Shown: positions 3,119-22,571 of the stretch, piece by piece | How positions within the stretch are numbered: the first letter of the stretch is position 1 | Layout of the letters: every line of letters starts with the position of its first letter | IMG/VR virus record: IMGVR_UViG_3300021197_000706 | Coordinates: 1-22,571 of that record | Direction: 5' to 3' (one strand) | Source of the DNA: a virus | DNA: 22,571 nucleotides | Notes under the pieces: generated by a model | Seen by the model: only the letters and a program-made list of their open reading frames with translations | Told to the model about the DNA's origin: nothing | Database searches by the model: none | Translations under genes and position numbers: made by a program

Positions 3119-3209
3119 CGCGAGCGGACTCATATACTGGGACGACTATAACTTTGATAATCAGTCAGTTACGACCGATCACATAAAAGTATACTTTAAG
3201 CTCTCTTAG
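3057..3209 (+). CDS. Possible small overlapping ORF, 50 aa
   Basis: A 50-codon frame begins inside the 95-aa gene (62-base overlap) and ends at TAG 3207-3209, ten bases into the first tRNA gene. The N half is Lys/Ser/Thr-rich; the C half (SGLIYWDDYNFDNQSVTTD, then IKVYFKLS) looks protein-like rather than random. It fills the otherwise empty 3119-3199. No family is recognised. It could equally be chance, with 3119-3199 serving as spacer before the tRNAs. Confidence 0.4.
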   Translation: MEKSKKTKTTQEDSQKDSPSSASGLIYWDDYNFDNQSVTTDHIKVYFKLS

Positions 3210-3273
3210 CTCAGTCGGTTAGAGCATCCGACTCATAATCGGCAGGTCCCAGGTTCAAGTCCTGGAGAGAGCA
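3200..3273 (+). tRNA. tRNA with CAT anticodon (Met elongator or Ile2)
   Basis: Full cloverleaf. The acceptor GCTCTCT (3200-3206) pairs with AGAGAGC (3266-3272), followed by discriminator A3273. The D stem is GCTC/GAGC, the anticodon loop CTCATAA and the T arm CCAGG-TTCAAGT-CCTGG. The anticodon is CAT. The outermost anticodon-stem pair is a T/C mismatch. CCA is not encoded (CAT follows). Whether it inserts Met, or Ile after lysidine modification, is unsettled: the 4-69 pair is C-G as in Ile2, but 5-68 is T-A. Confidence 0.9.
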
Positions 3274-3276
3274 CAT

Positions 3277-3353
3277 GCACCAGTAGCTCAGTTGGATAGA
3301 GCATCTGCCTTCTAAGCAGACGGTCACAGGTTCGAATCCTGTCTGGTGTACCA
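3277..3353 (+). tRNA. tRNA-Arg (TCT anticodon)
   Basis: Full cloverleaf. The acceptor GCACCAG (3277-3283) pairs with CTGGTGT (3343-3349), with a G-T first pair, discriminator A3350 and an encoded CCA (3351-3353). The anticodon stem TCTGC/GCAGA encloses loop CTTCTAA, giving TCT, which reads AGA/AGG. The T arm is ACAGG-TTCGAAT-CCTGT. It lies three bases after the CAT tRNA, so they are probably co-transcribed. The phage genes use AGA and AGG freely, which would make the tRNA useful. Confidence 0.93.
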
Positions 3354-3368
3354 ATTAAATTAAACAAT

Positions 3369-3557
3369 ATGCCCGATCTTATTTGCAAGAAGTGTAAAGC
3401 AGAAAAATCTGTAAGAAGCCTAACCATGAAGTTCCGAAATGGTAGTGTTTACTACCCTGAAGGACAGTGTGAGTGCGGTGAACAAATGGAGATTAAAAAC
3501 CCTAAAGAAGGCGTACCTTCGCTGGGAAGGATGAACTCACACGGACAGAGTTATTGA
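3369..3557 (+). CDS. Small zinc-ribbon protein upstream of the terminase
   Basis: A 62-aa protein with a CxxC near the N terminus (LICKKCKAEK) and a CxC after a beta-like stretch (GQCECGEQM), the layout of a one-zinc ribbon. The tail GVPSLGRMNSHG is polar. Its stop overlaps the terminase start as TGATG, so the two are translationally coupled. From memory, similar short zinc-ribbon proteins sit beside the terminase in flavobacterial phages. A role in packaging or DNA binding is inferred from position and fold only. Confidence 0.75.
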   Translation: MPDLICKKCKAEKSVRSLTMKFRNGSVYYPEGQCECGEQMEIKNPKEGVPSLGRMNSHGQSY

Positions 3558-5689
3558 TGTCTAATTTAATCGACATAGAAGGTTATGAAGCTAAGGGGAT
3601 TAAAATCGACCCTAACGGTACAGAAGGAGAAACTATCGAGCTCCACGGGTTACTCGTGGTACTACCGAAGAAACCGCGCAAATCGGAAATTCTCTTCCAT
3701 AACCAACCAAAGAAGTTGCAGCTGTGGAAACGCATACCTATGCCAGAGGAAATGCGTAGGATACGCAGTATGGATGAGTGGTTCGAAAAGCCTGCCGAGT
3801 TTCGGAACAAGTTTCGTTCTTACGTCGAACAAGAGTTTCAGCGTAGGCGTGACGGTGTATGGTTTTACAATAATGGGGAACCTACGTATATTACAGGGAG
3901 ACACTATATGTTTCTACAATGGTCTAAAATTGATATCGGATACCCATCATACCTTGCTTTCCAAAAAGACATCTTTACGCACATGGCTGCTTGTGAAGCT
4001 GATCCTCGTTGTTTCGGTCAGCTTTATACTAAGTGCCGTCGTTCTGGCTACACTAATGTATGCTCTTCTGTCCTTGTGGATGAAGCTAGTCAAGTTAAAG
4101 AGAAGCTTCTTGGCATACAGTCGAAAACTGGTAAAGACTCGCAGGAGAACATATTTATGAAGAAGGTGGTTGCGATTTTTCGTAGCTACCCATTCTTCTT
4201 TAAGCCTATTCAGGACGGTACCACAAACCCCCGTATGGAGCTGGCATTTCGCGAGCCCTCTAAGCGTATCACAAAGAATAATAAGACTTCTCAGATCGGC
4301 GATGCCCTGAATACAGTAATTAACTGGAAGAACACCACTAATAACGCATATGACGGGGAGAAGCTACATATGCTGTACCTCGATGAGGCTGGTAAATGGG
4401 AGAAACCTACTGATATCCGAGAAGCCTGGAGGATTGAGCGCACTTGCCTGATCGTGGGTAAAAGGGTAGTGGGAAAGGCGCTTGTAGGTAGCACGGTAAA
4501 CCCAATGAACAAAGGAGGGGAGGAATATAGAGAGCTGTGGGCTGACTCTGACCCCAACGAAAGAAACCAGAACGGTAGAACCAGGTCTGGACTATACAGA
4601 ATATTCATACCAGCGTATGCCGCCCTAGAAGGTTTCTTTGATGTGTATGGGAATGCTATAGTTGATGATCCCTCCGAAAACGTACACATACATGGTATAG
4701 ACGGGGAAATCATTGATCAGGGAAGTAAGACCTATTTAAAGAACGAACGAAGCTCGTTTAAAAACGACCCCTCTGAGCTTAACGAGATAATTAGGCAGTT
4801 TCCTTTTACAGAGGATGAAGCCTTCAGAGATAGTATTGAGGGAAGCCTGTTTAATATCGGTAAGATATACCAGCAGATAGAGTTTAACGAGGATATGTTT
4901 CCTAACCCAGTAGTGAGGGGTAATTTTGTTTGGAGGAATAAAGACGAGGAGGTTGTGTTCTCCCCAGATCCAAACGGTAGGTTTAGGGTTTCCTGGATGC
5001 CACCAGATCATTTAAGAAATCAGAAGAAAGACGAACGAGGCAAAAAGGTGGCCCCTAACGGGCATATCGGCGTTGGCGGGGTTGACTCATATGATTTAGA
5101 CGCTACGGTTGACGGAAGGGGCTCTAAAGGGGCTCTACACCTATATAATAAGTTTAGTATGGATGCCCCAGCAAATATGTTTGTAGTGGAGTATGCTTCT
5201 CGTCCAGACCTAGCTAGTATCTTTTATGAGGATGTTCTGATGTGTGCTTTCTTTTACGGATATCCTTTGCTTGTAGAGAACAACAAGTACGGTATCGTAA
5301 GGTACTTTGAGTCAAGGGGTTACGACGGTTACTTAATGGATCGTCCTGACTTCCTTAAGACAGGGAACTCTTCGGTGAATGTGAGAACTAAAGGGATCCC
5401 ATCTAACTCACAGGATGTTATACAGTCTCACGCCCAGGCTATCGAAGCATACATACACGACCACGTAGGTATAAAGGCTGAGACTGAGGAGTTTGGGAAC
5501 ATGTACTTCAACCGAACTCTAGAAGATTGGATTGCGTACAAGATTGACAAGCGTACTAAGTTTGACTTAACTATTAGTTCTGGATTAGCACTTCTTGGTG
5601 CTCAAAAAGCTAAAAAAGAAAAGGTTGTTTCTAGCTTTAGTGATAAGAAGTTTTTTAGGACTCACAAGCCAAAAGCTTGGCACTTCTAG
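3557..5689 (+). CDS. terL: Terminase large subunit (DNA-packaging ATPase/nuclease)
   Basis: The motor that pumps DNA into the prohead and cuts it. In the 710-aa product, a Walker A-like segment is TKCRRSGYT (158-166), a degenerate form seen in some phage terminases. Walker B is LYLDEAGK (273-280) with catalytic Asp276-Glu277. QFPFTEDEAF (about 414-423) is the typical link before the nuclease. The RNase H-like nuclease shows GGVDSYDLD (Asp510), LVENNKYG (Glu574) and KFDLTISSG (Asp670), a plausible metal-binding triad. A TTG at 3554 is in frame, but ATG 3557, coupled to the zinc-ribbon stop (TGATG), is preferred. The upstream TTTYITGRHYMFLQW-like part (PTYITGRHYMFLQW, 109-122) also matches long terminases of this type. 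Length is full; no damage is seen. Confidence 0.92.
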   Translation: MSNLIDIEGYEAKGIKIDPNGTEGETIELHGLLVVLPKKPRKSEILFHNQPKKLQLWKRIPMPEEMRRIRSMDEWFEKPAEFRNKFRSYVEQEFQRRRDGVWFYNNGEPTYITGRHYMFLQWSKIDIGYPSYLAFQKDIFTHMAACEADPRCFGQLYTKCRRSGYTNVCSSVLVDEASQVKEKLLGIQSKTGKDSQENIFMKKVVAIFRSYPFFFKPIQDGTTNPRMELAFREPSKRITKNNKTSQIGDALNTVINWKNTTNNAYDGEKLHMLYLDEAGKWEKPTDIREAWRIERTCLIVGKRVVGKALVGSTVNPMNKGGEEYRELWADSDPNERNQNGRTRSGLYRIFIPAYAALEGFFDVYGNAIVDDPSENVHIHGIDGEIIDQGSKTYLKNERSSFKNDPSELNEIIRQFPFTEDEAFRDSIEGSLFNIGKIYQQIEFNEDMFPNPVVRGNFVWRNKDEEVVFSPDPNGRFRVSWMPPDHLRNQKKDERGKKVAPNGHIGVGGVDSYDLDATVDGRGSKGALHLYNKFSMDAPANMFVVEYASRPDLASIFYEDVLMCAFFYGYPLLVENNKYGIVRYFESRGYDGYLMDRPDFLKTGNSSVNVRTKGIPSNSQDVIQSHAQAIEAYIHDHVGIKAETEEFGNMYFNRTLEDWIAYKIDKRTKFDLTISSGLALLGAQKAKKEKVVSSFSDKKFFRTHKPKAWHF

Positions 5690-5703
5690 TTTTACTATAT
5701 TTG
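5677..5703 (+). promoter_or_regulatory. Promoter for the portal gene
   Basis: TATATTTG (5696-5703) fits the TAnnTTTG -7 box, with TTG at 5677-5679 as a possible -33 element 16 bases upstream. It overlaps the terminase stop region and lies 31 bases before the portal ATG (5735). This would allow portal and downstream genes to be transcribed apart from the terminase. Confidence 0.65.
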
Positions 5704-5734
5704 CATTGAGTTATAAGAACTCTACTCATTGCAG

Positions 5735-8164
5735 ATGCACAGTAACAACAAAAAATCTAGCTTTCCAGACCCGCTAGCTCCGTCTGAGCAAAAACAAAGC
5801 AAAGCTTACGGTCTTAGTTACGCTAAGGCTGTATACAAGCAGTGGGGTAAGATGGACCAACAAAACTCCATCTTTGGAAACAGAAAGAAAACGTTTGAAA
5901 GAAACAGACGATACGCAAACGGAACACAAGACACGGCTATTTACAAGTCTCTTCTTACCTCACTAGATCCGAACAATGGTGACGGAAGTATGCTCAATAT
6001 TGACTTTACTCCAGTACCAATTCTACCTAAGTTTGTGCGTATTGTGGTCAATAAGATCCTGTCTTTATCTCCATATCCAAACCTGGAGGCTATCGACCCT
6101 TTATCTTCTTCTGAAAAAGATAAGGAGCGAAGAAAAATCGAGATGATGATCCAGGCTAAGCAACAGCTTGCTAAGATCGAAGAGAAGACTGGGGTTAGCG
6201 TGGGGATGAAGTCCTCAGAGATTCCAGAGACACTGGAGGAGGCTGAGATCTTTATCGGTAATAACATCAAGTCGTCTTCTGAGATTGCCGCCCAGATAGG
6301 CACTAACCTAACACTTGAGTGGAACGACTTCAATGACTCTACTTTACGTAGATGCGTGAATGATCTTGCTATTACTGGTATGGCTGTGGTCAAGCGTTCT
6401 AACGACCCTAACTACGGGATTAAGACCGACTATATAGACCCCATAAACTTCGTCCATAGCTTTACAGAAGATCCAGACTTCGGTGATCTTACATACGCTG
6501 GTCATGTGCGTTACGTCCCGATCCAGGAGTTGAAGCGCATGGCGGGAGACCAATTCACTGAAGAGGAGTTTAAAGAGATAGCAGACAAGGCTCAGAAGAA
6601 GTATGGTTACGATGCAAGTAAGCTAACTCAGTCGTCTTATGATAGGGTGAACAACCAGTCTAACTTTGGATACGATGAGTATATGGTTGAGGTATTGGAC
6701 TTTGAGTTCATGTCTGTCGATCACGAATACTTTGAGAACAAAGAAAGCAGATATGGCAATATAGGTTTTTACTCTAAGGGTGAAAATTACAAAGGCCCTC
6801 AAAACTCTGTATTTAACAGAGATGTGGTAAAACTTGAGTCTGCTTCTGTCTACGGAGGCTGTTACGTTCTTGGAACTGACTTCTTGTTTAACTACAGCAA
6901 GAAGAACAACATACCTAAGAATATCCACGACATCTCTAAGACTAACTTGTCTTACTCGGTTTGTTCTACGAACATTCTCGACATGATGCCTAAGTCTATG
7001 GTTGACAGCTGCATTGGTTTCGCCGATCAGTTGCAGCTTACGCATTTGAAAATCCAGCAGGCTGTTGCTAAGGCGAAGCCAGACGGAATCATTATCGATA
7101 TCGAGGGACTAGAAAATGTGCAGCTAGGTAAAGGTGGTGAACTGCAACCTCTTGATCTTCATGACATTTACGAGCAGACTGGTGTGTTCTACTATAGAAG
7201 CAAGAACCCAGAGGGAGGTTTTCAGAACCCACCTATCAGGGAGATCGGTAATAGCATTCGAAACATCAACGAGCTTATAGGTCTTTACAACCACTACCTG
7301 CGCATGATCCGTGATGCTACGGGTATTAACGAGGTGATGGATGCTTCTTCACCAAAGGGAGATGCCTTGGTTGGTGTAAGGCAGCAGGCTTTGGCCGCAG
7401 CCAACAACGCTATATATGACATCACTAATTCATCTATGGTGCTGTACAAGAAGGTTTGCAGCGACATCGTTAAGTGCTTGCAGGTAATTCACCCTGACTC
7501 TATTCTGTATCGTATTTACGAGAATGCCATTGGAGCGGAGAATATGTCTGTTTTGAGTTCTTTCAAGAACCTAGCGATGTATAACTTCGGTGTACGTGTA
7601 GTAAAGGAGATGGAAGAGGCTGAGCGTCAGTATCTTGAGCAGAACATTCAGATCGCTTTATCCCAAAAAGAAGTTGACCTAGAGGACGCGATTGCTATTC
7701 GCCAACTCAAGGACATCAACCAGGCCGAGCGTTTGTTAATAGTGCGTCGCAAGAAGCGTATCGCTATGAATCAGCAAATCGCCATGCAAAACTCTCAGCA
7801 GCAGGCTCAGATTCAGCAAGCATCTGCTCAGGCTACATCTCAAGCTAAACAGCAAGAGATGCAGATGGAGGCACAACTAAAAGCTCAAGAATTACAGCTT
7901 AAGACTCAGCTTGAGGCTCAGCTAGAGGAAGTGAAGCACGGGTTTAGAAAAGAGATTGAGATGATCAAAGCTCAGGCTACGCTTGGATTCAAAGAGGACG
8001 ACGAAAACTTTAAGGAGAAGCTCGAAGTGCTTAAAGAAGACAGGAAGGACGACAGGGTTAAGAAGCAGGCTGTTGAGCAAAGCAAGTTGCTTTCTCAGCG
8101 TCAGGGAGAAAGAAGTGAGCTTCCAGAAGAATCAGGAGATATTACATCAGAAATACTAGGCTAA
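5735..8164 (+). CDS. Portal protein
   Basis: An 809-aa protein directly after the terminase, in the usual portal position and size range for long portals. The N part has YAKAVYKQWGKMDQQNS and RRYANGTQD, then a core with VRIVVNKILSLSPYPNLEAIDP. The middle carries GLYNHYLRMIRDATGINEVMD (split as INELIGLYNHYL, then RDATGINEVMDASSP), the helix-turn typical of portals of this kind. Residues about 670-790 form a long Gln/Ala/Glu-rich coiled coil. It should form the 12-mer ring through which DNA enters and to which the tail binds. A TTG at 5729 is in frame, but ATG 5735 is the better start. The family call rests on position and pattern. Confidence 0.85.
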   Translation: MHSNNKKSSFPDPLAPSEQKQSKAYGLSYAKAVYKQWGKMDQQNSIFGNRKKTFERNRRYANGTQDTAIYKSLLTSLDPNNGDGSMLNIDFTPVPILPKFVRIVVNKILSLSPYPNLEAIDPLSSSEKDKERRKIEMMIQAKQQLAKIEEKTGVSVGMKSSEIPETLEEAEIFIGNNIKSSSEIAAQIGTNLTLEWNDFNDSTLRRCVNDLAITGMAVVKRSNDPNYGIKTDYIDPINFVHSFTEDPDFGDLTYAGHVRYVPIQELKRMAGDQFTEEEFKEIADKAQKKYGYDASKLTQSSYDRVNNQSNFGYDEYMVEVLDFEFMSVDHEYFENKESRYGNIGFYSKGENYKGPQNSVFNRDVVKLESASVYGGCYVLGTDFLFNYSKKNNIPKNIHDISKTNLSYSVCSTNILDMMPKSMVDSCIGFADQLQLTHLKIQQAVAKAKPDGIIIDIEGLENVQLGKGGELQPLDLHDIYEQTGVFYYRSKNPEGGFQNPPIREIGNSIRNINELIGLYNHYLRMIRDATGINEVMDASSPKGDALVGVRQQALAAANNAIYDITNSSMVLYKKVCSDIVKCLQVIHPDSILYRIYENAIGAENMSVLSSFKNLAMYNFGVRVVKEMEEAERQYLEQNIQIALSQKEVDLEDAIAIRQLKDINQAERLLIVRRKKRIAMNQQIAMQNSQQQAQIQQASAQATSQAKQQEMQMEAQLKAQELQLKTQLEAQLEEVKHGFRKEIEMIKAQATLGFKEDDENFKEKLEVLKEDRKDDRVKKQAVEQSKLLSQRQGERSELPEESGDITSEILG

Positions 8165-8165
8165 T

Positions 8166-8564
8166 ATGGATAAGGTTTTAAACTTAGACAGGTCACAGCG
8201 TCTTGATTTAATATGTAGAAAAGGGGACACGTTTACACTTAATTTAGAGCTTAAAGACGAAAACAATGTGGCTTTAGATCTCAACGACCAAAGAAATAAA
8301 TACACTTTTAAGATGGATGTCCGACCCAGCGACACCTCTGAGTTGAATATAGTTGATGTAACCCCTAAAATTTCTGTTGACACCCCTGGCTTGGTTACTT
8401 TCTCTGTTGATGCCGATAACATGACTATGGATTCTGGTCTTTATGTTTATGACATTCAACAAACCAGGACCGATGGCGCCACATCTACTGTCCTTTCTGT
8501 AGATACCTTGATATATGGTACATTTAAGGTAAATGAAGACGTAACTACCGACTCAGTTAGGTAA
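8166..8564 (+). CDS. Beta-rich tail accessory protein (BppU N-terminal-like?), 132 aa
   Basis: Reads as an immunoglobulin-like beta sandwich: LICRKGDTFTLNLELKDEN, NKYTFKMDVRPSD, PGLVTFSVDADNM, SGLYVYDIQQ. The RKGDTFxLxLxLxD opening and the GLYxYDIQ strand resemble N-terminal domains of upper-baseplate or tail-fibre adaptor proteins. It sits one base after the portal stop and is coupled to the giant fibre gene by TAATG. It may attach or chaperone that fibre. The family name is tentative; the beta fold is more secure. Confidence 0.6.
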   Translation: MDKVLNLDRSQRLDLICRKGDTFTLNLELKDENNVALDLNDQRNKYTFKMDVRPSDTSELNIVDVTPKISVDTPGLVTFSVDADNMTMDSGLYVYDIQQTRTDGATSTVLSVDTLIYGTFKVNEDVTTDSVR

Positions 8565-11500: not shown

Positions 11501-12361
11501 GTTGTTACTTGGGCAGCAGCAGGAGGCGGAAGTGGCACAGTTACAAGCATTACAGCAGGCACAGGCTTAGACGGAGGAACCATTACGTCTTCTGGAACGA
11601 TTGATTTAGCTAATACAGCGGTAACAGCGGGAGCCTATACAAGCGCAAATATCACAGTAGACGCTCAGGGTAGAATTACTGCGGCGGCTAACGGAAGTGG
11701 TGGAGGAGGCTCAGGAGGCATTGGTACAGCTGATCAAACGCTTAATGCCGATAGAACTATAGATACTAACGGCTTTAATCTTGATATTGAGTTAGACCCA
11801 ACAGGCACAGCAGATACCTTTACAATCCACGACGGTACTCACGACCTATTTCAGGTAGATACCAGCACAAGCGGCACACTGTTTAGTGTAAACGATGTTT
11901 CTGGATTACCTAAGCTCGAAGTAGATGAGACTGAGGGTGTTATTGCTAAAAGCATTAAAGTAGATGACTCAGCATTAACAGCTGCTGGTCAGTACGGTAA
12001 GGGTGCAGAGATTTGGTATCAAGGTACCTCTACCCCAACTGCTGGTAGTGTTTATTACTTAGATAGCTCAGGGAATTGGGCTAATACAGACGCAAGCGCT
12101 GTAGCTACAGCTAAAGGTATGCTGTCGGTTTCGGCAGGAGCAGATTCAGACGTTGACGGGATGGTAATTAAAGGATTTGTGTACGTAGGTACCGATCCTG
12201 GAGGTAGTGTAGGGGATGTTGTTTATCTTAGCGAGACAGCAAACCAATTAACTACCACTCCCCCAACAACAGCTTCTGCTGTAGTAAGAGTATGTGGTTA
12301 TAAAGTAGGGACTAACGTCGTTTATTTCGAACCATCTAAGGACTGGATTGAGCTTTCGTAA
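8564..12361 (+). CDS. Giant tail fibre with collagen-like and YadA-head-like repeats, 1265 aa
   Basis: Predicted trimeric receptor-binding fibre. In order: nine Gly-X-Y collagen-type triplets (11-38); a linker; a shaft with FPTADGSAGHFLKTDG and GNVGIGTTSPSQALHV, common in fibres that end in an S74 chaperone domain; about 17 short repeats of the form N-TAVGYxAL (about 483-770), as in YadA-type adhesin heads, closed by NKLYIANSNTATPLIYG; a second shaft (YFGVGTKTPDQKLHV, LPAADGSAGQFLQTNG); the module GTVTSITAGTGLDGG to DAQGRITAAANG (about 989-1046); and a C-terminal domain (about 1142-1265). No S74 endosialidase-type chaperone domain is visible at the end. The C-terminal domain matches that of the protein at 19553. 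The start is coupled to the previous stop. The exact receptor is unknown. Confidence 0.88.
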   Translation: MAKVKITLSKGPQGPQGPQGPLGPVGPSGPQGIQGQPGVDASPINNINDIDGVSIDFNTANLSTLGLEGVGTLNPKSYRYLTWDPVDNIIKLSEDAPDTYVVAGTSGSPSPGNQFVNPIFASINGGGVSNVFAASGVISVNQSSQIPSSVNLYVNGNARFNGAIQVGDTSSVSYSFPTADGSAGHFLKTDGNGQLSFAEASSLSLGTTSTTALAGDTTTITPSQASAITANTLKVGYTDAAVDSRIGAANIEDLSDVPTMGTAGQVLAVNSGATALEYVSQSGGGSSPWTTTGSDIYYNTGNVGIGTTSPSQALHVSGTDKHIYIEDGNLKLDRNNEGRIEFGISGQMWGESNGNTVYLQKSGNNHRIDFGTQVGTIKVLDTSVNNDFFTITTEGFESYSGSYFKYVQHNAANNNSGKVLEYSNDGASVNRGLVQVNGDLKVNDYTTGSAVEKIKLGNDGKIKALFGTENVLIGDAGTNITGYSNTAVGSFTLRDATSANQNVAIGQQAQRYTTGNYNVTVGTQANMYTTGANNVAVGGLAAKGGSTSTFSNTTAVGYNALNALTTGSSNTAIGYNSARLSTTSSNLTAVGYAALQGNVSGTGSTVIGAHAATVGSFSNVTAIGYGSAQYGSSGQFNAYLGGATGKYTSGSYNVLVGQDAGVGSSGSTFSSSVGIGYRSLIQSTSASNNTAVGHHTGYYITTGDKNTLLGSLAGKGVSGTSTFTNTVAVGYQALTALTTGANNTAFGYQAGLATTTGASNVFVGYRAGSAVTTASNKLYIANSNTATPLIYGEFDNDLVRVNGDLQLGAPAPNAPDKSLTIAGYSAAKLAFNLHNGFGKPEISASFDGSVKFINQGASSTLLSLQFGESASRQGAMKFFSNSNDAMKFGTNAAYPIAYIGPNEEGNNYNGGLLIKSRNGTSGTNDFYFSKLGYFGVGTKTPDQKLHVLGQIKVDDGTNPFTLPAADGSAGQFLQTNGSGVVTWAAAGGGSGTVTSITAGTGLDGGTITSSGTIDLANTAVTAGAYTSANITVDAQGRITAAANGSGGGGSGGIGTADQTLNADRTIDTNGFNLDIELDPTGTADTFTIHDGTHDLFQVDTSTSGTLFSVNDVSGLPKLEVDETEGVIAKSIKVDDSALTAAGQYGKGAEIWYQGTSTPTAGSVYYLDSSGNWANTDASAVATAKGMLSVSAGADSDVDGMVIKGFVYVGTDPGGSVGDVVYLSETANQLTTTPPTTASAVVRVCGYKVGTNVVYFEPSKDWIELS
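8594..8677 (+). repeat. Collagen-like Gly-X-Y triplet repeat
   Basis: Nine consecutive triplets beginning GPQGPQGPQGPLGPVG and ending GIQGQPG. Phage collagen-like segments form short triple helices, so this suggests the fibre is a trimer. Confidence 0.85.
10012..10872 (+). repeat. YadA-head-like coding repeats (about 17 units)
   Basis: Units run 14-27 residues with the core [TV]A[VI]G[YGSQ]xA[LAG], for example NTAVGSFTL, NVAIGQQAQ, NTTAVGYNAL, NTAIGYNSA, NTVAVGYQAL and NVFVGYRAG, often separated by TTG-type turns. Spacing fits a left-handed trimeric beta roll. The DNA of the units has diverged, so they are old rather than freshly copied. Confidence 0.8.
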
Positions 12362-13311
12362 TGGCTATCGATAAGGTAACAGGGACCGCTTGGGCCGATC
12401 TGTCCAAGATAAGCAACGTAGCAAAGGCTGACATTGCAAAAGTTGCTGGGCAAGACGCCCCGTCTGGAGTTTCGGCAACTGTAGTGACAGACAACCTATG
12501 GATTTCATTTGACCCTAATAATATCAGCGGCACAACGATTACAGATCAGAGCGGTAATAGTAGGCACGGAACACTCACTAATGGAGCCACTGTAGTTTCA
12601 AACTACAATGGAGCTACAAAAGCATTCTATACAGACGGCACTAACGACTACGCTCAAAGGGCAACCACAAGCAACCCAAGCACGGGCTTTCCTTACACAA
12701 TTGAGTCGTGGCATTGTCGTCAGAATTCAGCCAACATGACTGGAAACGCCCCTACTGTGGGTAAGCCTCACAATAGTCGTTATAGGTTTGTTGACCACGG
12801 TATCTTCGCTACAGATTACACGGACAGCTACGGCAATAGAGGGGCCTATCACAGATACTACACCAACTCAGCTCTCGGATCAACAAACACTTTTAGCGAT
12901 TCGCATTTTGCCGACACAACTAATACTGGGTCGAACGGACCGTCCGTTCTTAAAAGTGCAGTAGACACTATAATAGGAACCACGGGTGACAAATGGATAC
13001 ACTTATGTACTGTGTTTTCTTACAACAGTAACAATAGGATTAGCATCAAGGGGTACATAAACGGAACAAAGGTTAAGGATATCGACGGCGACAACGTAGT
13101 CGTAAACGGGTCTTCTGTGGGGACCAACGGGGCTTGGCCTTGGGAAGACGGTGGTACGTGTAGCTATGGGTTTGGGTATAGAGAGAGATACACAAGCGCA
13201 GACAGCTACCTTAAGGGTCATTGGGGAGATTATCGCCTCTATACAGACGCCTTAACAGATGCAGAAGTACTAAATAATTTTAACGCTACTAAATCTAAAT
13301 ACGGATATTAA
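12361..13311 (+). CDS. LamG/concanavalin-like lectin protein, copy 1 (316 aa)
   Basis: Putative carbohydrate-binding virion protein. Residues 1-45 form an N-terminal segment (AIDKVTGTAWADLSKISNVA) different from the later copies and probably an attachment region. The rest is a jelly-roll lectin fold: LWISFDPNNISG, DGTNDYAQRA, YTIESWHCR, WIHLCTVFSYN, IKGYINGTKV and the closing strand plus helix YRLYTDALTDAEVLNNFNA. This is the longest and most divergent of the four LamG genes. It is coupled to the giant fibre gene by TAATG. Sugar specificity cannot be read from the sequence. Confidence 0.8.
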   Translation: MAIDKVTGTAWADLSKISNVAKADIAKVAGQDAPSGVSATVVTDNLWISFDPNNISGTTITDQSGNSRHGTLTNGATVVSNYNGATKAFYTDGTNDYAQRATTSNPSTGFPYTIESWHCRQNSANMTGNAPTVGKPHNSRYRFVDHGIFATDYTDSYGNRGAYHRYYTNSALGSTNTFSDSHFADTTNTGSNGPSVLKSAVDTIIGTTGDKWIHLCTVFSYNSNNRISIKGYINGTKVKDIDGDNVVVNGSSVGTNGAWPWEDGGTCSYGFGYRERYTSADSYLKGHWGDYRLYTDALTDAEVLNNFNATKSKYGY

Positions 13312-13312
13312 T

Positions 13313-13567
13313 ATGCATTTTGAAGACAGACACTACGTAATCTTTGACCTCACAGAGGTAGATACGATCGACTTCTCAGAAGTCATGGAGACATCAGCAG
13401 ACACGCTGAGAAAGAACTTAGCTAACACGCAAAGCTTTGTGAAGTACGAAGGGGACCAACCACCTTCGATAGTTGCTCTTACTACACGCAGTCAGGAATA
13501 TTCTCACGAAGAGATTATTACGCTGCTCGCTGGGACTGACTGGACCGATCCTAACGCAGAGATCTAA
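13313..13567 (+). CDS. Hypothetical protein between LamG genes, 84 aa
   Basis: A compact alpha/beta-looking protein: YVIFDLTEVDTIDFSEVMETS, ADTLRKNLANT, QSFVKYEG, then HEEIITLLAGTDWTDP. I recall similar small proteins beside LamG or tail-fibre genes in marine phages but know no function. It starts one base after the first LamG stop and ends directly before the second LamG ATG, so it is part of that transcript. A chaperone or attachment role for the LamG proteins is possible, unproven. Confidence 0.7.
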   Translation: MHFEDRHYVIFDLTEVDTIDFSEVMETSADTLRKNLANTQSFVKYEGDQPPSIVALTTRSQEYSHEEIITLLAGTDWTDPNAEI

Positions 13568-14254
13568 ATGGGTGGGTTTGCAAATAATGCACCTATCGTA
13601 ACCGATGGGCTAGTATTCTATGTGGACGCAGGGAATGATAACTCGTATCCTGGTAGCGGTAATACGTGGACGGACCTGTCAGGGGGTATTAGCAATAGTT
13701 TGGCAAACGGTCCTACCTTTGACTCAGGGAGTGGTGGAGGAATTTCGACTGACGGTTCTGATGACTACATAACGCTTCCTACAGGAGTCGTTCCATCTAA
13801 CACAGACGTTACCATATCTTTTACCGCAAGGAACGACTACACTTCACTTACGACCAACAGGGGTATATTCGCCATAGAAGGAGGAACGGGGAGTAAGCTT
13901 CAGTTCTTTCTGGGGGGTACTACGGGTGGCCCCCACGGAAGGGTCGGAACCTACAATGGTAGTGCTTATGGTAACTCACCAGCTGGATATATGCAGTTTC
14001 CTATAGGAGAGACGCACTCGTTTACATTGGTAATCGACAGCTCTGGTGACTTCAAACTTTATAAAGACGGAGCTTTAGAGGCATCAGTGTCTGGTATTTC
14101 ATTCACGGCTAATGCAGCTACTTACCTAGGTCGGTACCCAGCTAACTCAAATCATGGAAAGTTCACCTTTTACAATGCGAGAGTTTACAACAGAGCTTTA
14201 ACGGATGCCGAAGTACTCCAAAACTACAACGCCCTTAAAAACAGATTCGTATGA
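13568..14254 (+). CDS. LamG/concanavalin-like lectin protein, copy 2 (228 aa)
   Basis: Single lectin-type jelly roll with a short lead-in. Signature segments: IVTDGLVFYVDAGNDNSY near the start, then SGNTWTDLSGG, GGISTDGSDDYITLP, VTISFTARNDY, SFTLVIDSSGDFKLYKDG and the closing RVYNRALTDAEVLQNYNALKN. The lead GLVxYxDAGNxxSYxGSG and tail DAEVLQNYNALKNRF are shared with copies 3 and 4. It is the shortest-spaced member, following the 84-aa gene with no gap and overlapping copy 3 by four bases (ATGA). Likely exposed on the virion for glycan binding, inferred from family. Confidence 0.82.
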   Translation: MGGFANNAPIVTDGLVFYVDAGNDNSYPGSGNTWTDLSGGISNSLANGPTFDSGSGGGISTDGSDDYITLPTGVVPSNTDVTISFTARNDYTSLTTNRGIFAIEGGTGSKLQFFLGGTTGGPHGRVGTYNGSAYGNSPAGYMQFPIGETHSFTLVIDSSGDFKLYKDGALEASVSGISFTANAATYLGRYPANSNHGKFTFYNARVYNRALTDAEVLQNYNALKNRFV

Positions 14255-14946
14255 GCTACAGCTACGGGAAAAGCATAGTGACGGATGGGTTGGTGTTCTA
14301 CGTGGATGCAGCTAACGGCAATAGCTATTCAGGATCTGGCAGCACATTTAGCGACCTGGTGGGTAGTGACGATGTAACCCTTTACAACACTCCTACTTAC
14401 AGCTCGGACAACGGGGGTATATTTTCGTTCGACGGGGTAAATGAAGGTGCGCAGACAAGTACAAGCACGACACTGCTTGACGGCCCTATGTCTATTGATG
14501 CATGGGTAAAACCTCAGACTACTGGAGCGGATGGTGCCGTAATTGGAAACTGGCAACAACCAAACGAAAACTTTTTATTGTGGTGGGACATTGGAGTTAC
14601 TCCAAACTTTAGAGCAATAGCAAGAACATCACCAAGTGTTGTTGTTACTACATCTGAATCAGCAACCCGTGGAACCTTAAACGCTTGGAACCATGTAGGT
14701 GTAACGTGGGACTCAACTAACTTAAAAATATATTTAAACGGAACCCTGCAAGAGACTGTATCAACGGGCACTATGTCCACACCAGGTAGTTATCGTGCAA
14801 ATATTGGGGCTGACTGGAGCGGCACCCCTGGTTCTTCCTCAAGAAACTTAAATGGAGATATCGCAGCAGTAAAGGTTTATAACAGGGTCCTTTCCGCAGA
14901 TGAAGTTCTTCAAAACTACAACGCACTCAAAAACCGTTTCGTATGA
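14251..14946 (+). CDS. LamG/concanavalin-like lectin protein, copy 3 (231 aa)
   Basis: The most canonical LamG copy: IVTDGLVFYVDAANGNSY, then SFDGVNEGAQ, PMSIDAWVKPQ, LNAWNHVGVTWDSTNLKIYLNG (the W-HV-V and LYxNG strands of LamG), and VKVYNRVLSADEVLQNYNALKN. It overlaps copies 2 and 4 by four bases each (ATGA), so translation is coupled. Outer ends match copy 2 closely while the centre differs, as expected if binding surfaces diverge between constant ends. Confidence 0.85.
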   Translation: MSYSYGKSIVTDGLVFYVDAANGNSYSGSGSTFSDLVGSDDVTLYNTPTYSSDNGGIFSFDGVNEGAQTSTSTTLLDGPMSIDAWVKPQTTGADGAVIGNWQQPNENFLLWWDIGVTPNFRAIARTSPSVVVTTSESATRGTLNAWNHVGVTWDSTNLKIYLNGTLQETVSTGTMSTPGSYRANIGADWSGTPGSSSRNLNGDIAAVKVYNRVLSADEVLQNYNALKNRFV

Positions 14947-15617
14947 GCGTAAAGAATCGAAATAGCATCGTTACAGACGGGCTATCATACTGCTTGGATG
15001 CAGGAAATGAGCTATCGTATTCAGGCTCTGGGACTTCTTCAAGCGATCTCGCAAGCAATCTTGTTGGAACACTTACTAATGGTCCAACATTTGACAGTTC
15101 AAATGGCGGGAGCTTTGTGTTTGACGGTTCAGACGACAGCATCCAAGTATCTCACGATAGTGCTATCGCTTTTACTAGTGCGCTTACCAATGAGGTTTGG
15201 TTTAAGTTAGATTCTTTCCCTTCAGGGTCGAACCGATACACACTCTGCACTAAAGCGTCTTCATACTATATGAACGTGTCCAATCAAAGAATATCCGTTT
15301 ACACTTATTGGAGCAACGGGAGTAGACAAAACTCTGGGTATACCGACTCCACTAGTACGCTGTCTTTGAATACTTGGCATCAGGCTGTTTTCACAGAGAG
15401 TACAAGCGGTCTAAGAAAGATTTATATCGATGGTCAGCTCGATAAAACAGAACAGAAGGAAGCTAGTATATGGCCCGAACAAAATTTACTTTATGTGGGC
15501 GGTAGCGGTGGAAGGTTTTTAGACGGTCGTATTGCCCGCGTAAACCTGTACAACCGCGAGCTAAGCGCCTCCGAAGTCCTTCAGAACTACAACGCATTAA
15601 AGAATAGATTTATTTAA
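14943..15617 (+). CDS. LamG/concanavalin-like lectin protein, copy 4 (224 aa)
   Basis: Last of the tandem set. Motifs: IVTDGLSYCLDAGNELSY, FVFDGSDDSIQVSHD, LTNEVWFKLDSFPSG, LNTWHQAVFTESTSGLRKIYIDG, RVNLYNRELSASEVLQNYNALKN. The family W-H and YIDG strands are present. It ends the operon stretch: a fresh promoter follows at 15619. Compared with copies 2 and 3, its DAGN lead carries a cysteine (SYCLD). Receptor unknown. Confidence 0.84.
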   Translation: MSVKNRNSIVTDGLSYCLDAGNELSYSGSGTSSSDLASNLVGTLTNGPTFDSSNGGSFVFDGSDDSIQVSHDSAIAFTSALTNEVWFKLDSFPSGSNRYTLCTKASSYYMNVSNQRISVYTYWSNGSRQNSGYTDSTSTLSLNTWHQAVFTESTSGLRKIYIDGQLDKTEQKEASIWPEQNLLYVGGSGGRFLDGRIARVNLYNRELSASEVLQNYNALKNRFI

Positions 15618-20331: not shown

Positions 20332-20625
20332 ATGCGCTGTTGCAAGAAGTATAAAAAAGGGGGTAACGTAAGCCTTAAGATGGGCAAGCATAAGTCCCGT
20401 TCTGGCGGACTTACTAAGGCTGGTGTAGCTAAATACAACAGAGAAACAGGTAGCAACCTGAAGACCGCTGTTACTACGCCTCCATCTAAACTTAAAAAAG
20501 GAAGTAAAGCCGCAGGTAGAAGAAAGTCTTTCTGCGCTAGAATGTCTGGCGTAAAAGGACCAATGAAAAAGCCTAACGGTAAACCAACCAGGAAGGCTCT
20601 TGCGTTGCGGAAGTGGAATTGTTGA
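20332..20625 (+). CDS. Small basic protein, DUF6321-like, 97 aa
   Basis: Very Lys/Arg-rich. After the N-terminal CCKKYKKGG motif it has HKSRSGGLTKAGVAKYNRETG, SNLKTAVTTPPSKLKKGS, AAGRRKSFCARMSGVKGPM and the end RKALALRKWNC, which I match from memory to DUF6321. That family occurs in phages and has no known function. Charge and conserved Cys/Trp positions suggest nucleic-acid contact or packaging within the virion. First gene of a run of five tiny genes ending at the scaffold promoter. Family call fairly good; role unknown. Confidence 0.75.
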   Translation: MRCCKKYKKGGNVSLKMGKHKSRSGGLTKAGVAKYNRETGSNLKTAVTTPPSKLKKGSKAAGRRKSFCARMSGVKGPMKKPNGKPTRKALALRKWNC

Positions 20626-20638
20626 TTAAGATATAAAG

Positions 20639-20848
20639 ATGCCAGATAATATTTCTCATTTTGAATTCCTGCTTGTTGCGGGATCTTTAGTAGGTGGCTG
20701 GGTGAAGTTTCATTCCGACTACAGCAAGCTGTCTACTAGGGTGTCAGCTTTAGAGGCAGATAACGGAGAATTCAGAGAGGACGTGAAACAGCTTTTAAAA
20801 GACATTCAGGAGATCAAGCTTTTGCTTGCTAAGAACCAAGTTCAATGA
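20639..20848 (+). CDS. Small membrane protein with coiled coil, holin-like, 69 aa
   Basis: One hydrophobic segment near the N terminus (about residues 8-24, FEFLLVAGSLVGGWVKF), then a heptad-rich coiled coil (YSKLSTRVSALEADNGEF, VKQLLKDIQEIKLLLAKN). The layout, one membrane helix plus a coiled coil in under 75 residues, is common in phage holin-like or XhlA-like proteins, though XhlA has the opposite order. Function as the holin partner of the M15 peptidase is possible, but the two genes are nearly 20 kb apart in this window. It overlaps the next gene by four bases (ATGA). Confidence 0.65.
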   Translation: MPDNISHFEFLLVAGSLVGGWVKFHSDYSKLSTRVSALEADNGEFREDVKQLLKDIQEIKLLLAKNQVQ

Positions 20849-21030
20849 ATGCGGTCAAGTACAATAAAGGCGGTAAACTAAAGGTAAGCTCGGCTACCAA
20901 GGCTGTTTCTGCCCCTGATGGTTTTCACTGGATGGAGGAGAGAGGTAGATACTTTCTCATGAAGGGAGGCTACAAACCTCATCCTGGGGCCGTAAAGGAA
21001 GCCAAGTTTAAGATCGTAAACCACTCATGA
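20845..21030 (+). CDS. Small basic protein with KYNKGG motif, 61 aa
   Basis: N terminus MNAVKYNKGGKLK carries the KYxKGG motif shared with the proteins at 20332 and 21027. The rest reads APDGFHWMEERGRYFLMKGG, then KPHPGAVKEAKFKIV, a PxGxHWMxxxGxxxMKG-type pattern that I believe recurs in marine phage small proteins. It is basic and has no membrane segment. ATGA overlaps on both sides tie it to its neighbours. Function unknown. Confidence 0.7.
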   Translation: MNAVKYNKGGKLKVSSATKAVSAPDGFHWMEERGRYFLMKGGYKPHPGAVKEAKFKIVNHS

Positions 21031-21215
21031 AGGCAAAGAAGAAATGCAACTGCGGTTGCAAGAAATATAAGAAAGGGGGTGCCGTGAAAGACGCTTGTTA
21101 CAGCAAGGTTAAGTCTCGTTACAGTGTATGGCCTTCTGCTTATGCTTCTGGTGCTTTGGCTAAGTGTAGAAAGGTAGGTGTTAAAAATTGGGGCAATGGC
21201 GGTAAGAAAAACTAA
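21027..21215 (+). CDS. Small Cys-rich basic protein (VWPSAYASGAL motif), 62 aa
   Basis: Begins MKAKKKCNCGCKKYKKGG, combining a CxCxC cluster with the KKYKKGG motif, and continues YSKVKSRYSVWPSAYASGAL, KCRKVGVKNWGNGG. The SRYxVWPSAYASGALxxCRKxGxxNWG block is one I recall from phage and large-virus small proteins with no assigned role. The DNA for its N-terminal motif nearly repeats that at 20336. The last 20 bases overlap the next gene. Possibly a virion-packaged DNA-binding protein; not shown. Confidence 0.72.
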   Translation: MKAKKKCNCGCKKYKKGGAVKDACYSKVKSRYSVWPSAYASGALAKCRKVGVKNWGNGGKKN

Positions 21216-21435
21216 AGCAGGTCTTAACCTAAAACGTTGGTTTAAAGAGGATTGGAAGACTTTATCTGGAGATAAGGATTACTCAAAAGGTGATCGCTCA
21301 TTTAGACCAACTAAAAGAATATCTAAAGACACTCCAGCAACAGCCTCTGAGTTAACTCCAGCAGATAAAGCTAGAGGGAGAAAAGAAAAACGAGAGAAAG
21401 GCAGGGTAAGTCGCTGGAAGAAGAGCTCTAAATAA
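21196..21435 (+). CDS. Small basic protein, DUF5872-like?, 79 aa
   Basis: The ATG at 21196 (MAVRKTKAGLNLKRWFKEDW) is preferred over an in-frame ATG at 21178, as it gives a clean N terminus and a shorter overlap with the preceding gene. The GLxxxRWFKEDW segment resembles the start of DUF5872-type proteins found in phages and large viruses. The C terminus is highly basic (ADKARGRKEKREKGRVSRWKK). The middle SKDTPATASELTPADKARG is polar. No KYxKGG motif here. Family assignment is tentative, function unknown. Confidence 0.6.
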   Translation: MAVRKTKAGLNLKRWFKEDWKTLSGDKDYSKGDRSFRPTKRISKDTPATASELTPADKARGRKEKREKGRVSRWKKSSK

Positions 21436-21479: not shown

Positions 21480-22571
21480 ATGGATCAAGAAAACAATAAC
21501 CCAGTAGAAGAAATGGCTCAAGAAGCTGTTGTCTCTACGCCAGAAGAGTCTACATCATCATTTAGCTTCGTAAGCGATGAAGAGATAGCTCAAATGAATC
21601 AACCCCAAGAACAGCCTACACAGGAAGCTGCTCCAGAGGTTGAGCAACCACAAGAAACTTTTTCTGAACCAACGGAGGCGCAACCAGAGGTTCAGCAAGA
21701 ATATGCACCAGAAGAAGTCGAGACGGCTGTGTTCGAATTCCTTAGCGAAAGGCTTGGGAGGAACATAAGCTCTATCGACGACCTACAGGCGCAGCAGCAG
21801 GAGCAAAGAGAGATTGACGAGCGTATTTCTGTGATTGCGGATTTTGTCGAAAAGACTGGCCGCGATCCACAAGATTGGTTTATCTATCAGTCAATGAACC
21901 CATCCGAAATGGATGACATGACTGCTATTCAGGTCCAGATGGCATCTGATTACCCAAACCTATCGCAAGAAGAAATCGGTATGTTGGTCTCTAGCAAGTA
22001 TAAGCTCGATCCAGATCTTAACTCAGAAGACGAGGTGAAGCTTTCGCAACTGCAAATGAAGATAGACGCATCTAATGCGCGTAAGGGAATTGATGAAATG
22101 CGATTGCAGTATCAAGCCCCAGAACGCCAAGCAGAGGCAGAGTCTACTTCTATGATTGATGATAACTGGGTTTCAAACATGCGTAGTGAGCTGGACGCTA
22201 TGGAAGGGATTGAATTCAATCTTGGAAATGACAAGACGTTTACTTTCGGTATGGATGAGAACTACAAGAATCAGCTGGCTGAGAAAAACACTCGCCTTGA
22301 CGAGTTTTTCGATCCTTATGTGCGAGAGGACGGGAGCTGGGATTACGACACTCTGAATATGCACAGAGCTGTGATTGACAACGTAGAGAGCATTGTCCAG
22401 TCTGTTTACAGACAGGGTATGTCCGACGGTCAGCGCGGCATTGTGAATAAAGCAGCGAACGTATCTCCTACGTCTCCAAATCAAGGACAAGCACCTAATG
22501 GACCCGACCCACTGACTCAGCAACTAAAAGAAGCGCTGGGGGTGAATAAGGGAGGGTTCGGATTTATCTAA
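21480..22571 (+). CDS. Probable phage scaffolding protein, 363 aa
   Basis: Expected to guide capsid assembly and be absent from mature virions. The N-terminal 85 residues are acidic and Gln/Glu/Pro-rich (EEMAQEAVVSTPEESTSS, QPTQEAAPEVEQPQETF), apparently disordered. Residues about 85-215 are helical (VFEFLSERLGRNISS, ERISVIADFVEKTGRDPQDW, SQEEIGMLVSSKYKL). The C-terminal half has EFFDPYVREDGSWDYD and a final GVNKGGFGFI, where a short capsid-binding segment would be expected. The composition, size and strong own promoter suit a scaffold preceding a major capsid gene. The stop is the last base of the window, so that neighbour is not seen. Confidence 0.75.
   Translation: MDQENNNPVEEMAQEAVVSTPEESTSSFSFVSDEEIAQMNQPQEQPTQEAAPEVEQPQETFSEPTEAQPEVQQEYAPEEVETAVFEFLSERLGRNISSIDDLQAQQQEQREIDERISVIADFVEKTGRDPQDWFIYQSMNPSEMDDMTAIQVQMASDYPNLSQEEIGMLVSSKYKLDPDLNSEDEVKLSQLQMKIDASNARKGIDEMRLQYQAPERQAEAESTSMIDDNWVSNMRSELDAMEGIEFNLGNDKTFTFGMDENYKNQLAEKNTRLDEFFDPYVREDGSWDYDTLNMHRAVIDNVESIVQSVYRQGMSDGQRGIVNKAANVSPTSPNQGQAPNGPDPLTQQLKEALGVNKGGFGFI

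Follow-up and report, generated by a model that had tools for sequence, protein, structure and literature searches.

In the human gut, crassviruses are the most abundant viruses, and they load megadaltons of protein into the head and tail. The capsid targeting sequence (CTS) of phage T4 is cut by the prohead protease; maturation sites of the adenovirus/ASFV GG-X type carry GG at P2-P1 in basic core proteins, with a hydrophobic residue at P4. The T4 CTS encapsidates internal proteins into the scaffolding core (PMC3012670). In crAss001, gp45 is cargo protein C1, which is found in both capsid and tail by cryo-EM and mass spectrometry (PMC10172136); its structures include PDB 7qog.

The window, i.e. 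the whole stretch of 22,571 nucleotides analysed here, is a virus record (22.6 kb) and comes from a marine crAss-like phage related to crAssphage. It is assigned to Crassvirales because of its terminase and portal matches (Table 1) together with the muzzle protein (PF25731, E=8.6e-18) encoded by the close relative G008, which is 97% identical to the window at the scaffold-like gene; the capsid gene order is also of crassvirus type. In relatives, the scaffold-like gene lies directly upstream of the major capsid gene. By terminase, the nearest isolates are Flavobacterium, Cellulophaga and Maribacter phages. The window also contains adjacent tRNA-Met(cat) and tRNA-Arg(tct) genes (3200-3353) upstream of the terminase gene, and four adjacent LamG-like fibre genes (12361-15617) with similar C-terminal tails (xxEVLxNYNAxKxxx). 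A 44-aa basic ORF at 1118-1252 (phrog_17967/516) ends in YKGQGR, a C-terminus shared with gp63 of Pelagibacter phage HTVC104P.

Table 1. Late-module genes and tag positions in the window
Feature	Position	Strand	Remarks
Terminase large subunit	3554..5689	+	phrog_6681, E=1.5e-213; places the late module
Portal protein	5729..8164	+	phrog_6547, E=1e-194
97-aa basic protein (pI 11.3), tag CCKKYKKGG and DUF6321 body	20332..20625	+	starts MRCCKKYKKGGNV; PF19846, E=4e-25
Tag 1, codons K-Y-K-K-G-G	20347..20364	+	
61-aa basic protein (pI 10.1), tag KYNKGG and 'GFHWMEERGRYFLMKG' body	20845..21030	+	starts MNAVKYNKGGKL; no named family
Tag 2, codons K-Y-N-K-G-G	20857..20874	+	
62-aa basic protein (pI 10.1), tag CGCKKYKKGG and 'VWPSAYASGALAKCRK' body	21027..21215	+	starts MKAKKKCNCGCKKYKKGGAV; phrog_727, E=2e-16; phrog_3477
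Tag 3, codons K-Y-K-K-G-G	21063..21080	+	
Untagged basic 79-aa neighbour, DUF5872	21196..21435	+	PF19197, E=6e-13; ATG at 21196
363-aa acidic (pI 4.1) scaffold-like protein	21480..22571	+	precedes the capsid gene in related contigs, a conserved position

An earlier note on this DNA described three neighbouring small basic proteins with an N-terminal KYxKGG tag; these were confirmed at the same ORFs, between the fibre genes and the acidic scaffold-like gene. A degenerate pattern for the tag matches the window exactly at three places, which are the three tags; with up to two mismatches there are four matches, a number reached by none of 100 shuffles. The DUF6321 match of the first protein scores 88.7 bits against a curated cut-off of 28.5. 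The tag regions are predicted to be disordered: in the AlphaFold model of the DUF6321 protein (pLDDT 76 overall) residues 1-11, which hold the tag, fall below 50, and the model of the 62-aa protein, a pair of short helices, is likewise below this value at residues 5-15, which run through the start of the tag. Untagged relatives of the 61-aa protein are found in Pelagibacter phages (HTVC104P gp58 and HTVC106P gp28).

The untagged neighbour matches DUF5872 at 49.8 bits (curated cut-off 27.5) over profile positions 48-111 of 116. Its start was taken from G008; a longer ORF from GTG 21178 would overlap the preceding gene. None of the window proteins matches PF25725 (crassvirus cargo protein 1) in Pfam. 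No solved structure was found by sequence for the four small proteins, or by similarity of fold for DUF6321; another fold search returned only DUF6321-type viral proteins. The literature holds no mention of DUF6321, and for YKKGG together with phage it gave nothing beyond one antibody paper.

The tag is one form of a wider motif, [YF]-x-x-G-G. Among 627 distinct proteins from 15 crAss-like sequences (genes called by a simple script), 24 carry this motif within the first 25 residues, where 4.0 are expected from residue permutation. Spacings of 0, 1, 3 or 4 between the aromatic residue and GG show no enrichment in the same sequences. Since homologous sequences are not independent, the count was also made with one member per family (179 families); 6.5 were observed and 1.2 expected. 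In 69 random other viral contigs (626 proteins) there is no excess, with 2 observed and 3.7 expected.

In IMG/VR, DNA encoding KYKKGGK is present in at least 120 stretches, against 69 in all for the scrambled KYGKKGK. The earlier note had named equal frequency at random positions as grounds for dropping its reading; among the matches listed, 44 of 93 ORFs (of at least 40 aa) have KYKKGG no more than 30 residues from the start, against 5 of 40 for scrambled KYGKKG (p=1.5e-4). The remaining 49 of the 93 listed copies lie deeper, between modules or at the C-terminus. Among the matches listed in a separate ATG-anchored scan, 71 are in-frame and 18 out-of-frame.

Selection was analysed in the FHWM family, using an alignment for which sequences were not chosen on the tag. 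The pN/pS ratio is 0.16 for tag codons, 0.21 for the body, 0.28 for preceding codons and 0.50 for following codons; K5 is conserved in 73/73 sequences, K8 in 72/73, G10 in 71/73 and Y6 in 61/73. Protein-level selection on the tag is supported.

Every one of the 26 strictly tagged genes lies on the late strand (p=4e-4). They are located directly before scaffold and capsid genes, beside endolysin and terminase genes, or after giant cargo-region genes. The earlier note proposed asking what the motif is fused to in viral metagenomes; the answer is several body types on late genes, beyond the three of the window. Among them are an EF-hand module that resembles dockerin (PDLTGDGKVT), an AYMSSG module, and proteins 200-570 aa long, some of which bear tags in tandem. 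The same short N-terminal peptide is thus borne by several proteins with different bodies.

Several recurrent features accompany the tags. The EF-hand/dockerin-like module (PDLTGDGKVTxADxLKGRGV) follows directly after a YxxGG tag at L279, L243, G013 8209-8526 and G008 5274-5909; one G008 protein matches Dockerin_1 (E=1.4e-4). Many tiny phage proteins end in a C-terminal motif of the RGxGIAxRGxTRGR type, often after KYKKGGKV (L418, L424, L267, L254). Cys-rich leaders (NSSCGCDCCSGKSYKKGG, CGKEDCDCGCKKYKKGG), which could bind metal, stand ahead of several tags in VWPSAYASG homologues such as L086 and L087.

The tag is optional. Tagged members make up 25/90 of small DUF6321 homologues, 86/103 of FHWM homologues and 25/43 of VWPSAYASG homologues, and the tag comes and goes cleanly between close relatives (MAKVVK-KDACYHK, MAKVVK-KYKKGGSV-KDACYHK). 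DUF6321 is untagged even in G008, the nearest relative. In Pelagibacter phages, the FHWM body is encoded by small untagged genes; apparent divergent DUF5872-like and PSAYA-type bodies, recognised by eye and with no Pfam hit, are encoded in the same way. Absence of the motif from homologues of each family, which the earlier note had listed as evidence against its proposal, is therefore seen in part: many homologues lack the tag while others keep it. Frequent natural loss argues against the tag being necessary for encapsidation. The idea of a genome-specific matching key among tags was rejected: tags in one genome resemble each other no more than chance, hence no genome-specific partner is seen. 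The sole significant within-genome pair, AYM/EF, arises from counting one protein twice.

Homologous bodies occur in virion proteins of other phages. In T4-like cyanophages, DUF6321, VWPSAYASG and a DUF5872-like stretch (the last judged by eye, as Pfam makes no DUF5872 call there) are fused in one protein adjoining the terminase genes; examples are Syn9 gp114, S-SM1 T4-GC119 (annotated as hypothetical), S-SM2_109 and S-SCSM1 gp29. The earlier note called the bodies unrelated. This is correct at the level of sequence, but the bodies belong together, as their fusion in one cyanophage protein shows. In S-CREM2 the modules are split between gp137 (DUF6321, E=3.5e-10) and gp160 (VWPSAYASG). Four and seven unique peptides, respectively, were recovered from these proteins in the CsCl-virion proteome (PMC10665884, Table 3), which is good but not final evidence because CsCl preparations can hold contaminants. 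S-SCSM1 gp29, which carries DUF6321 and VWPSAYASG, is labelled a virion protein by authors who performed virion mass spectrometry (PMC9602691). In Eistla, an unrelated T7-like Pelagibacter phage, a DUF6321 gene is located between the scaffold and capsid genes. Hundreds of phage records contain DUF6321, DUF5872-like and VWPSAYASG modules, to which no function is assigned; on these homologies, the modules gain a likely location in the virion.

The motif is also common to a known crassvirus cargo protein and small late proteins of marine relatives. A KYKKGG-tagged ORF of 72 aa (L350, on a 98-kb contig) matches residues 382-424 of crAss001 gp45 with 74% identity over 43 aa (E ~1e-14). In DAC15_59, the C1 protein of Bacteroides phage DAC15, [YF]xxGG joins modules and precedes both copies of the 382-424-type module; five motifs are observed and 0.8 expected. 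In crAss001 gp45, which starts MAKKKIKRRGKMPPNIFDTGG, enrichment is weak (3 against 0.9 expected, P=0.06). The linkers align position by position: KYKKGGKIHIK in the tagged ORF, LFDEGGGIHIK and LYEDGGGIHIK in DAC15. In crAss001 the linker before the module is IAKDGGDIKIK (AKDGG), in which GG is kept and the aromatic residue is absent. The ordered tail segment of gp45 (residues 214-245) starts just after FSAYGG, and AFGG and MFAYGG flank its ordered domain that is bound to the portal (425-552); bordering of ordered segments by YGG/FGG-type linkers is suggestive. DAC15_59 (L657 2209-4707) has two tandem KFT...RKRATFA modules; crAss001 gp45 has one.

The explanation that we tentatively prefer, and hold at somewhat under even chances, is that the tag represents [YF]-x-x-G-G in one of its uses, set among basic residues, and serves as a docking peptide or linker at module boundaries of internal (cargo-type) virion proteins of crAss-like phages. 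The three window proteins would be made late and enter the prohead. The disordered tag would act as a flexible docking arm for the scaffold, the capsid wall or portal zone, or DNA; this would allow interchangeable basic modules to travel in the particle beside the acidic scaffold. The modules would be separate small proteins here and linked parts of one large protein elsewhere. Loading of tagged proteins into the head is plausible because homologous bodies occur in virions and because of the C1 cargo link. A strict requirement for the tag is disfavoured, as its presence is optional. The earlier note's suggestion of a sorting signal thus holds in part: the tag is specific in position and spacing, is under selection, is restricted to late genes and is joined to bodies related to virion proteins, but it is neither strictly N-terminal nor required, and no GG protease was found. 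For crassviruses, the motif offers a concrete, mutable candidate signal.

It is possible, though doubtful, that the tag does no more than separate modules as a flexible basic spacer, or contact DNA as a tail between them, with a physical role and no specific partner. Predicted disorder, optional presence, occurrence at N-terminal, internal and C-terminal places and the many K/G-rich stretches nearby all fit such a role. A mere spacer is disfavoured because the spacing is strict: low-complexity K/G composition was rejected as a cause, since neither residue permutation nor other spacings reproduce the enrichment. The tag also evolves more slowly than its flanks, and the gut C1 versions are acidic (FDEGG, YEDGG), which makes them ill-suited to contact DNA.

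Alternatively, the motif may be a cleavage site at which a virion-maturation protease cuts after GG, trimming leaders and splitting multi-module proteins. This is unlikely. With a constrained residue upstream of GG and N, K, A, S, T or M freely following it, the motif does resemble GG-specific protease sites; some proteins have a tag before every module (G013 8209, G011 9426), and the ordered segments of gp45 are bordered by motif-like linkers. Adenovirus/ASFV GG-X sites are alike in placing GG in basic proteins; they differ in that the crAss-like motif has a constrained aromatic residue at P5 and no hydrophobic P4, and no protease gene was found. Untagged homologues exist, and neither a maturation protease nor a T4-type prohead protease was found among the 46 proteins of the near-complete relative G008 at Pfam E<=0.01, where a missing match is no proof. 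The words protease and cleav are absent from the crAss001 structure paper (PMC10172136).

A still broader scheme would treat [YF]xxGG, in crassviruses and in aquatic phages related to them, as a general code for processing or loading. C1 would then be a polyprotein of interchangeable modules joined at the motif, and marine crassviruses would carry the same kind of module as free tagged proteins; a single undiscovered machinery would load them and might also cut them. We regard this as rather improbable.

The DNA of the tags has also been considered. The earlier note reported a near-identical 29-base repeat (20336-20364 and 21052-21080) with about four differences; the near-identity stands, and the actual number of differences is three (26/29 bases identical). 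Similarity falls to background on either side. Elsewhere in the window, 25/29 is reached at only two offsets, both of which fall within the repeated LamG-type genes (~14.2-15.6 kb). Gene conversion or a mobile 29-bp repeat could have copied DNA recently from one gene to the other, which would account for identical bases between unrelated flanks. When CKKYKKGG is coded with the codon usage of the phage group, however, a mean of 19.6/24 bases is shared, and the observed 22/24 is reached or exceeded in 8% of draws (P=0.08); shared peptide and codon usage yield the identity, so it needs no special cause, and the object of interest is the peptide. Among homologues, synonymous codons of the tag vary freely while the peptide is kept, and tags within a genome lack mutual resemblance when the main family pairs are compared (each with 11 to 30 locus pairs). 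A recent copy is already largely refuted and is very unlikely. That the stretch acts in the RNA, by providing an intragenic AAGGNGG of Shine-Dalgarno type, has a negligible chance of being correct: AAGGAGG can be spelled by K-G-G codons, but codon choice refutes the effect, as GGA-GG makes up about one third of tag glycine pairs (51/144), with no clear excess over internal GG pairs.

Internal proteins of T4 are the nearest working analogue of the proposed docking peptide, being diverse small late proteins with only a short N-terminal peptide in common. The T4 CTS is a different motif and is trimmed by a protease, whereas the crAss-like motif is optional and also internal or C-terminal, with no such protease found; [YF]xxGG may be compared with a capsid targeting sequence of T4 type as a likeness only. 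The cyanophage protein T4-GC119 (Syn9 gp114, S-SCSM1 gp29) has the same bodies as three adjacent window genes. It differs in being a single fused protein of 443-708 aa whose modules lack a preceding KYKKGG tag. C1 (gp45, PF25725 crAss_CARG1) differs in that gp45 is one chain of 842 aa with acidic or neutral linkers, and the three bodies of the window are not gp45 modules; it is alike in having one tagged small ORF as a homologue of residues 382-424, and in the placement of [YF]xxGG between modules in both gp45 and DAC15_59.
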